From: Symbiodinium natans
Lineage: Eukaryota > Sar > Dinophyceae > Suessiales > Symbiodiniaceae
Direction: 5' to 3'
Assembly: GCA_905221605.1 (NCBI GenBank)
Contig: CAJNDS010001657.1
Coordinates: 522,144 to 586,143 of the forward strand
DNA: 64,000 nt
Shown here: piece after piece, positions 253-8,908 of the stretch
Layout of the letters: each line of letters opens with the position of its first letter
Numbering within the stretch: the first letter of the stretch is position 1
Position numbers and translations under genes: made by a program
Notes under the pieces: generated by a model
Databases searched by the model: none
The model's input: the letters and a program-made list of their open reading frames with translations, nothing else
What the model was told of the DNA's origin: nothing

Positions 253-3200
253 ATGTCAAGCCAAAGCCGCTTGAGTGAAGGCATCTTCTCGGTGCGGGTC
301 CTCTCCGGCTTGGTTCGTGTTGGCTGGGTGGCGGATGAGGCCTCTGCAGATGAAGTGGGAACTGACGAGACTAGCTTTGGCTTCGGAGGGACAGGGAAGA
401 CACTGGGCCACAAAGTGCGTGAGGGCTCTTCAGCAGGTCATGCGGTCAGATGTGTGTTTAGGAAGGTGGCTTGGGAATTTTGTTCAGGGTTCGGTCGCGA
501 AGTCTTCGATTGTTGTTTTGTCAGTTTTTGTTGCTCTTCCGACTCAGGAAATCCCATGCCAACATATTTGAATCTTATGGTGACGCTGGGCTTCGCAAAG
601 AGTGGCAGTGAGAGCGCTTGTCCATGTGTGTTGCTTCCTGCGACCGCTTTCATGGGCTGGGAGCAGTAGCGGGTTAATGTTGACCTCCGATTAATACCCC
701 CCCCCCGTCCATTGGCTCAATGCCCCACCCTCCCCCTCAGCCCTTCTCTATTGAGGGGGGGAGTCAGGGGAGTCGGCTTCTGCTTTTGTTCTTAATCGGA
801 CCTTGGTCTCAGGCCCGTGCAGTCTGTTTTTGTGTTAGCACTTCAGCCCCTCGAAATTTTGCAGTCTTTTGTTTAGGTCTCCAGCCCTTGCAGTCTCTAA
901 TTGAGGCCTCAATATTCCGCAGACGTCAGCAAAGGCTCATGGCTCAAGCGTTGATCGGATCCCTCCCGCCCTCCCGCCCTCCCGCCCTCCCGCCCTCCCG
1001 CCATCGCTCCCTCGCTCTCTCGCTCTCTCGCTCTTTTGCTCTCTCGCTCTCTCGCTCTCGCGCTCTCGCGCTCTCGCGCTCTCGCGCTCTCGCGCTCTCT
1101 CGCTCTCTCGCTCTCTCGCTCTCTCGCTCTCTCGCTCTATGGCTCCCTCTCTCTCTCTCTCTTCTTTTTTTTTTTCTCTCTCTCTCTCTCTCTCTTTTTT
1201 CTCCCTTTCTCTGTCTCTCACTCTCACTCTCACTCTCACTCTCACTCTCACTCTCACTCTCACTCTCACTCTCACTCTCACTCTCACTCTCACTCTCACT
1301 CTCACTCTCACTCTCACTCTCACTCTCACTCTCACTCTCCCTCTCACTCTCACTCTCACTCTCACTCTCACTCTCACTCTCACTCTCACTCTCACTCTCA
1401 CTCTCACTCTCACTCTCACTCTCACTCTCTCTCTCTCTCTCTCTCTCTCTCCCTTTTACATATCAAGAGCACTTCACCCCTAGGGATTCTAGTTTTAAAA
1501 TTGAGTGCCGGGCCTGAGAGATCTTAATTGAGGGGGGGAGGCTTTGAAAAATCTGAAGTGGGCATTCCAATCACGAGCCGAACTGAGTCAGGACACTTTT
1601 GGAAGTGGCGATGTGATCGAGTCCCGCCTGGACCGCCGCAACGGTCTTCGCATCGCATTCGCACAGAACGGCCGTGACCTGGGCGTGGCCTTCGACGTCA
1701 AGGCTCTCCATCTTGTCCCTTTGTGCTTAGTCATATTGAGACCCTATTGAGACCCCTACTATCCCTGCACCTTGAAAGGCAGTGTTCAAGGTTGTCTTAA
1801 AATCTGTTAAGGCTCTTGAGCTTCTTGTTAAGATGAATTTGGCGCTACTCATGTTCTAGGGAGATTTGACGTTCCTTGAAAGGCGCAGCCTCCGCTCTTG
1901 AGACAGAGGTCAATGATGCCTGCTGTTTGTGGCAAGGGTTTTCAAGTGGAGATCTGTCATGCAGATCCTGTGCCAGAGCCACCCTTGCAACGTTGCAAGT
2001 CGGAGGAGGAGATGTCCACACCGCTTCGCTACTATGCACTCCGCTGTAGCGCGGCCAAGCCGGCCAAGGAGAAGCAACCGAAGCCCATGGCCAAAGAGCG
2101 ACAGGCCCGCCCCGAAGCTGACAATTTCGAGGCCATGCTCGGTAGCTTTTTCGTAAAGCTGGAGAGAAAGGCCCAGCCCGAACAAGCTGTGGAACTCTGG
2201 CTCCGCTCGGCCTTTGCCCTTGCAAAGGAAACTCCGAGTCGGGAGGCCCAGGAGGCCCAGGAGGCTCAAAGGGACGGCTCCCAGATCCGCAAGGTCCAGC
2301 GTAAGGTGGCCTTGCCATCCGGCCCCACCTTTACCATCATCGATTCCCAGCCAGCCAGCAGGGCCAACGCAGACCGGGCCTTCTCTCAGAATCTGGCCCT
2401 CTGGGAACACCTGCCACGGGGCCACGCTGAGGTGCGCGGGGACACCGGCAGCCTGCTTTGTGAGCTCGCGGCCATGCGGAAGTTCGGGAGCTCAGAGGAG
2501 AAGTTCGGGCCGTTGGCCCGGGAGGCCGGTGGTGCCCGCCGCTGCGCCCTCTCCTGGCTTCCCGCATCCGTGAAGAGCTTGAAGACCGAGCATCTGAGCC
2601 TGGCCATGGTGTTCACCACAAAGGCAGTTGGGCCGAAGAGACGTAAGAGACGTAAGAGACGTAAGAGACCTAACAGTCCAAGAATCATGCTTGAAGGGCT
2701 CCGCATTCGCCGGCATTCCCTCGGACACTGTTTGTCGCACACGCAGCTTTCAAGTTGTTTCGAGTTTTGAGTCTTGTCAGCCTTTTTTTGCAGAGCGATC
2801 CCATCAAACTTGTCTTGGTTGCCTCGAGGAGAACGGAGAGATGTGCAAAGCATCTTTCTTCTTCCATGGTGATGTGCCCTACCTAGCTTTGGGATCCAAG
2901 AACGTCACCTTGGTGGTCGTCGCCACGGACAAGAGCAAAGCCTTGGAAGACCTGTCTTCCTACACGGAGGAGCGGTTCCAGTTCGCCGTGGAGATGGCCG
3001 AGGTCTTCCTCACCCAGCTGTTCAACTTGCACGAGGACCAGCGGACCACCATGATGCGTTTTGTTGTGGAGCACTCTGCTACCCTCTGCGGAGAGTCCAT
3101 CTCTCCGGTTCACCAGCACATCCAAAGTTACCACAACTGCTCCTCGGCATCATCTCGTGCTGGCAACGTTCGCAGTCCTCCCAGCCCCCAGCTGTCCTTT

Positions 3201-8908: not shown

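Follow-up and report, generated by a model that had tools for sequence, protein, structure and literature searches.

How many of the steps that heal and seal a broken RNA can be carried by a single gene? The question is raised by the beginning of the window, by which we mean the whole 64-kb stretch of Symbiodinium natans DNA analysed here, where an earlier note had described one gene encoding SPRY, RNA ligase, 5'-kinase, cyclic phosphodiesterase (CPD), THUMP and RtcA in one chain. Profiles, motifs and predicted folds recover these six domains in the order claimed, the fifth as a THUMP-like module, and the domain order of the spliced chain, together with the predicted folds, bears out the comparison of the ligase-kinase-CPD core with Trl1. 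From these motifs and fold models, we consider it probable that the gene encodes a single-chain Trl1-type RNA end-healing and sealing enzyme that is extended at both ends, with RtcA feeding the CPD-kinase-ligase cascade.

Mapping the homologous protein P0001 with tblastn and rebuilding the splicing gave 18 coding exons within the window (276-9412, plus strand; Table 1), encoding 1749 residues with 75% identity to P0001 over 1771 aligned columns. Open frames with RNA-repair families do lie on the plus strand where the earlier note placed them. The single in-phase frame proposed earlier holds, running through all 18 exons with no internal stop, and such stops were one of the signs against it that the note had named. 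The gene structure itself had to be revised from the eleven exons first counted. The start proposed at ATG 253 fails, as homologs carry more N-terminal residues (~39 in P0001), and coding therefore begins upstream of the first exon of the window. Searches with the N-termini of P0001-P0008 gave no convincing tblastn match for the first coding exon (~39 residues of P0001) in the window or in the 10 kb upstream, half of which is N (the 5000 bases directly before the window). The end proposed at 8908 was wrong too, the RtcA C-terminus with its LHLQTA lying on exons 16 to 18. The exon given as 5401-6358 exists with other bounds and is followed by two short exons (12 and 13), and that given as 7474-8652 was correctly delimited. 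The phosphodiesterase and the start of THUMP do share the former, and the end of THUMP and RtcA the latter, so that both the CPD-THUMP and the THUMP-RtcA linkages stand on unbroken genomic frames. A 12-exon draft, which served as query for the initial whole-chain Pfam, PDB and homology searches, was discarded when the homologs revealed overlooked short exons and GA and GC donors.

Table 1. Coding exons of the SPRY-to-RtcA gene inside the window, with residues identical to P0001 and the splice donor of each
Coding exon	Position	Strand	Content	Identical to P0001	Donor
1 (first in window)	276..398	+	start of DDX1-type SPRY	34/41	GA
2	548..581	+	SPRY	9/12	GA
3	1592..1702	+	SPRY	29/37	GC
4	1883..2623	+	SPRY end, variable linker, ligase N-terminal part	151/244	GC
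5	2829..3138	+	ligase, opens with ENG of motif I KENG	83/103	GC
6	3306..3425	+	ligase	31/40	GT
7	3573..3874	+	ligase motifs REGAVVY, YKWKNAWY	83/101	GA
8	3994..4215	+	ligase C-terminal part	54/73	GA
9	4353..4418	+	ligase-kinase linker	17/22	GC
10	4550..5296	+	5'-OH kinase	193/245	GC
11	5434..6338	+	2H cyclic phosphodiesterase and first THUMP-like part	240/299	GC
12	6622..6664	+	THUMP-like module	12/15	GC
13	6986..7025	+	THUMP-like module, poorly conserved	9/13	GT
14	7182..7291	+	THUMP domain core	33/37	GC
15	7474..8652	+	THUMP end, charged linker, most of RtcA	289/377	GC
16	8959..9045	+	RtcA C-terminal part, LHLQT histidine codon 9034	26/29	GC
17	9246..9287	+	RtcA C-terminal part	13/14	GT
18	9347..9412	+	RtcA C-terminus and stop codon TGA	14/21	

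The junctions of this model were chosen to fit the homologs, a choice on which the tally of its splice sites depends: donors are GC in 10 cases, GA in four and GT in three, and acceptors are AG followed by G in 17 of 18 exons and AG followed by T in one. As acceptors mostly precede a G and donors start with G, many junctions are ambiguous by one base, leaving the protein unchanged. Exon 13 is placed by reading frame and P0001, having no tblastn match of its own above threshold. According to PMC6123633, gene prediction in Symbiodinium allows for GA and GC donors. A CTCTCA/TCGCTC tandem repeat takes up ~450 bases (1004-1451) of the intron that separates coding exon 2 from coding exon 3.

The rest of the window was surveyed for RNA genes, repeats and reading frames. 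Neither a tRNA scan nor an Rfam scan of the 64 kb found any RNA gene. Ten open frames were scanned outside the SPRY-to-RtcA gene, among them a cytochrome P450 frame (21011-21991, plus strand; Pfam E 8.8e-49) and one with a weak C2H2 zinc finger (26752-27207, minus strand). An ~870-base GAGGGA tandem array occupies 47913-48786, and a plant-type telomere repeat (AACCCTA, 16.4 copies, 98% match, 52192-52305), internal to the 768-kb contig, is followed by G-rich GGGTTTAGG-like arrays at 57261-57492 and 57723-57931.

Among the six families for which the earlier note had proposed profile searches, SPRY, CPD and RtcA score above the curated Pfam cut-offs; ligase, kinase and THUMP fall below theirs, and their assignment is based on motifs and predicted folds. 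These folds were predicted for two homologs, P0009 and P0011, and are of moderate quality (mean pLDDT 67 and 69, pTM 0.41 and 0.50). The ligase reaches 26.5 bits against DUF7920 (cut-off 27), and by predicted structure it has a Trl1-like nucleotidyltransferase fold with the KxNG lysine. Read without splicing, its motif I is E-E-N-G; splicing from 2623 (donor GC) to 2829 turns this into K-E-N-G, exon 4 closing on the lysine codon (2621-2623), and KENG, the nucleotide-accepting lysine motif, is also found in P0001-P0008 and P0011. The kinase family PF08303 scores 17.9 bits in the whole chain and 22.4 on the exon (cut-off 22.7), with six of ten members matching at E up to 1, and the P-loop (GLQGSGKS, lysine codon 4682) and NQDE of exon 10 are present in 13 of the 13 alignment rows covering the kinase motifs. 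The phosphodiesterase (PF08302, 34.9 bits against a cut-off of 23, all ten members matching) has two HxT motifs, HVT and HIT, with histidine codons at 5605 and 5797 in exon 11, and structure comparison of a homolog model gives this region a CNPase fold.

In front of the core, the SPRY (43.5 bits, cut-off 26.3) appears nearest in sequence to that of DDX1, the helicase of the human RtcB-type tRNA ligase complex (2e-29, the next-best SPRY reaching 4e-7), and shares an 11-residue stretch with it. The window protein has 13 Pfam matches; no DEAD or helicase family occurs in these or in the best 25 of 30 over 10 members, and no RtcB domain (PF01139) in those 13. Behind the core, the THUMP cut-off of Pfam is missed: a match at E up to 1 is obtained for three of eight members (lowest E 0.0082), the first member scores 13.7 bits against a cut-off of 20.6, and a THUMP profile search of the PDB returned no THUMP protein among its eight irrelevant chains (E 0.92-1.5). 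The predicted fold of the module is matched in Foldseek ranks 18-38 (21 rows, E 7e-5 to 1.3e-2), where 17 rows are Trm14, ThiI/PH1313, Trm11, RlmLK, TrmN and an archaeal tRNA deaminase and the remaining four are Usb1. These enzymes (Trm14, ThiI, Trm11, RlmLK, TrmN and the deaminase) contain THUMP, a feature stated in the title of one entry. VIA-align of the C-terminal model listed no THUMP chain in 50 rows, giving RtcA, EPSP-synthase-type and CNPase entries instead. We call the module THUMP-like because the Pfam cut-off is missed and the fold is matched; the THUMP family points to tRNA.

The terminal RtcA domain scores 173.8 bits for RTC (cut-off 27) and 41.9 for RTC_insert (cut-off 23). Its score with the RtcA equivalog model TIGR03399 (230.8 bits) is below the cut-off of 250.05 and exceeds that of the Rcl1 model TIGR03400 by 155 bits. 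The active-site histidine of its C-terminal HxxT shares an alignment column with the corresponding histidine of archaeal and of E. coli RtcA (4o89 and 3kgd), which is His309 in E. coli. LHxxTA occurs in 10 alignment rows including that of the window; P0008 ends before this point and P0013 is without the motif. The catalytic signatures of all four predicted enzymes, ligase, kinase, CPD and RtcA, are kept; in the 1749-residue model the ligase lysine is residue 337, the P-loop lysine 722, the two CPD histidines 984 and 1048, and the RtcA histidine 1711. On this basis, the complete set of RNA-healing and sealing activities announced by the earlier note is a reading of these conserved motifs.

The same order of domains, which the note had suggested seeking in other dinoflagellates, is complete in seven of the 13 database homologs fetched: P0001-P0007 span SPRY through the RtcA C-terminus. 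The closest relative of the window protein comes from Symbiodinium sp. CCMP2592. The homologs with the full order are public database entries, one of them named simply RTCA. P0008, ending within RtcA, and P0011, covering SPRY to kinase, are labelled partial, whereas P0009 and P0012 reach from about the kinase to the chain end. Two gene models deviate: in P0010, from Durusdinium trenchii, the motif I region is broken (EEKNG) and the frame is lost at the first HxT of CPD, and P0013 has THUMP and an incomplete RtcA, without EGGGQ, DAGTGGS or LHxxTA, fused to a helicase. Because P0003 (89% identity to P0010 over 80% of the core) spans all domains on a 5282-base contig, we read P0010 and P0013 as putative annotation errors. 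The contigs that carry P0003 (1730 aa), P0005 (1711) and P0006 (1843) measure 5282, 5224 and no more than 5729 bases, of which about 90-200 are non-coding, and the name of P0002 marks it as a Trinity ORF; with so short a non-coding remainder and such a name, these four are transcripts or as good as. As for transcripts breaking between domains, which the earlier note had named as evidence against a single gene, these transcript-like contigs span all the domains, and the two presumably faulty models are those that depart from them.

The architecture was also sought more widely. When proteins of roughly 1030-3280 residues were searched with the P0007 RtcA domain, 10 of 11 matches were this architecture or pieces of it, the eleventh being P0013. 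A core-only protein search, aimed at plant and fungal ligases, gave three matches, all dinoflagellate-named. Its scoring is confined to the candidates with the most 5-letter words in common, so that the lack of matches outside dinoflagellates counts for little. Relatives were confirmed for none of 79 pattern matches in viral contigs and none of 44 in prokaryotes (one genome per species). Between the window protein and P0001 the domains are 77-83% identical and the two linkers 38-40%; over P0001-P0009 the values are 42-83%, leaving out a three-residue overlap of P0009 with the ligase, and 9-40%. Such conservation of domains over linkers is what selection on each domain would produce.

In the enzyme that we favour, RtcA would convert a 3'-phosphate to a 2',3'-cyclic phosphate at the expense of ATP, CPD would open the latter to 2'-phosphate/3'-OH, and the kinase would add a phosphate to the 5'-OH end. 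With its KENG lysine adenylated, the ligase would then join both ends and leave the 2'-phosphate at the junction, from which a separate Tpt1-family enzyme would remove it. The THUMP-like module may bias the enzyme towards tRNA or RNA resembling it; the DDX1-type SPRY may dock a partner. The addition of RtcA would extend the substrate range beyond the cyclic-phosphate ends of the tRNA splicing endonuclease to the 3'-phosphate ends of damaged RNA. The single steps are described elsewhere: RtcA turns 3'-phosphates into 2',3'-cyclic phosphates (PMC13247085), and in yeast and plants CPD converts 2',3'-cyclic phosphates to 2'-phosphate/3'-OH ends and ligation typically needs the 2'-phosphate, which Tpt1 removes (PMC3400036). 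A structure study of Trl1 prepared ligase-ready ends with RtcA, Trl1-CPD and ATP (PMC6592678), so that the fusion would unite in a single chain a cascade known from the test tube. That this cascade operates in the cell, and on which RNA, we infer. RtcA and CPD are opposed in direction, which makes a futile cycle possible (PMC13247085), and PMC8668186 gives the function of the DDX1 SPRY as unknown.

The genomic context was examined in the 759-Mb assembly (2543 contigs), searched in six frames, exon by exon, with the best candidates scored. Among these, the CPD family has one match, the SPRY-to-RtcA gene itself, and the RTC family two, this gene and a piece on C2351. The latter belongs to a second RtcA-like gene (L004:4518-5192), with a RAGRKTPGLAAQHL exon and an EGGGQ stretch upstream, and the RtcA of the fusion is consequently not the sole one. 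RtcB, which is unrelated to Trl1, has two family matches among the candidates scored, both on C2102, where an exon with VGVDIGCGM lies on the minus strand (L006:1501-1719). Judged by these sequences, RtcB and a Trl1-type ligase coexist in this genome, and with RtcB-family exons present, the task of tRNA splicing need not fall to the SPRY-to-RtcA protein. The Tpt1 family has at least 150 matches (150 scored of 474 candidates), and two of the loci, L008 and L012, look like plain Tpt1 genes, so that the enzyme required after Trl1-type ligation is available.

Many other matches to Tpt1/KptA (RNA 2'-phosphotransferase), among loci L008-L017, fall in very long open frames that recur in the genome (4767, 2937 and 656 aa). 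In L017:1717-9999 (minus strand) a single 2761-residue frame combines Tpt1, an Exo_endo_phos endonuclease and a reverse transcriptase, and in L016:786-8258 (plus strand) Tpt1, Exo_endo_phos and reverse transcriptase follow on consecutive overlapping frames. From the two elements examined, these frames look like a high-copy LINE-type retroelement with an RNA 2'-phosphotransferase domain. The frame behind the reverse transcriptase frame of L016 (7349-9085) matches ubiquitin carboxyl-terminal hydrolase (Pfam E 2e-12).

The protein could, with a probability that we regard as low, be the tRNA splicing ligase of the organism with plain Trl1 function, RtcA serving to undo stray or misdirected CPD products or to regulate, and 3'-phosphates not being substrates. 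The core has the order and fold of Trl1, THUMP-like modules are typical of tRNA enzymes, Tpt1 is present in the genome, and mammalian RtcA and CNP are described as opposed on 2',3'-cyclic phosphate ends (PMC13247085); splicing could, however, be performed by the products of the RtcB-family exons. Less probable still is that one or more of the enzymes are dead and retain a binding role, RtcA acting for instance as a sensor of RNA 3' ends. Activity is predicted here from sequence, and RtcA does have an inactive relative, Rcl1, but the motif residues are kept in all covering rows except the faulty P0010 and P0013, the RtcA histidine falls in line with its archaeal and E. coli counterparts, and the profile difference of 155 bits favours RtcA over Rcl1. 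We give very little weight to an organellar target, such as the dinoflagellate mitochondrial cox3 trans-splicing, for which this would be the ligase: later-branching dinoflagellates build cox3 from two separately transcribed exons (PMC3577742), but the homologs, P0001 and P0003 for instance, open almost directly with the DDX1-like SPRY, with no targeting-like extension by eye. That two adjacent genes, one Trl1-like and one THUMP-RtcA, were falsely joined by the earlier note and by the gene models of relatives, as P0010 (ending in CPD) and P0013 (THUMP and partial RtcA behind a helicase) might suggest, is hardly credible, being largely refuted by the shared open exons 11 and 15 and by the relatives' contigs, with full chains on near-coding length in P0003, P0005 and P0006 and a Trinity ORF in P0002.

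The predicted single-chain healing and sealing enzyme has to be set beside several known systems. It shares the ligase-kinase-CPD order with Trl1 and the plant tRNA ligase RNL, and differs from both in the DDX1-type SPRY in front, the THUMP-like module and RtcA behind, and a ligase that Pfam recognises just as DUF7920. Solved RtcA chains are stand-alone proteins of ~340 residues, whereas here RtcA is the C-terminal domain of a ligase; CNPase (CNP) lacks ligase, THUMP and RtcA. The THUMP-like module matches the fold of several of the enzymes ThiI, Trm11, Trm14 and TrmN over 184-195 residues at 5-7 A; in contrast to these tRNA enzymes, the chain has no visible methyltransferase or thiolation domain, and THUMP would serve an RNA ligase. 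Unlike DDX1, whose SPRY sits inserted in RecA1 (PMC13247085), the chain has no helicase domain among its Pfam matches. The rtcA-rtcB operon of some bacteria also couples RtcA with an RNA ligase (PMC3400036, PMC13247085), but does so as an operon with the RtcB ligase, not as a fusion. In full-text literature that covers few subscription journals, we found no description of such a SPRY-to-RtcA fusion; full-text searches likewise returned nothing on DUF7920, nothing combining RtcA, tRNA ligase and dinoflagellates, and nothing but unrelated work combining THUMP and RtcA.

RtcA and Trl1-CPD have already been mixed in a tube to obtain ligatable ends; here the cascade would be one gene which, if functional, would provide a one-enzyme tool to join RNAs with otherwise unjoinable ends. 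For the dinoflagellates, we tentatively propose an all-in-one enzyme that might combine the Trl1 pathway with parts from the RtcB/RtcA/DDX1 side, namely RtcA and a DDX1-type SPRY, be aimed at tRNA by THUMP, and heal and seal breaks with a 3'-phosphate, 2',3'-cyclic phosphate or 2'-phosphate and a 5'-OH. The physiological function of RtcA was still unknown according to a 2012 review (PMC3400036), and a 2026 review speaks of a potential regulatory role and of unknown sources of 3'-phosphate ends (PMC13247085). That RtcA is here joined to a Trl1-type ligase, a kinase and CPD suggests an answer, namely that 3'-phosphate ends enter the CPD-kinase-ligase route by way of RtcA.
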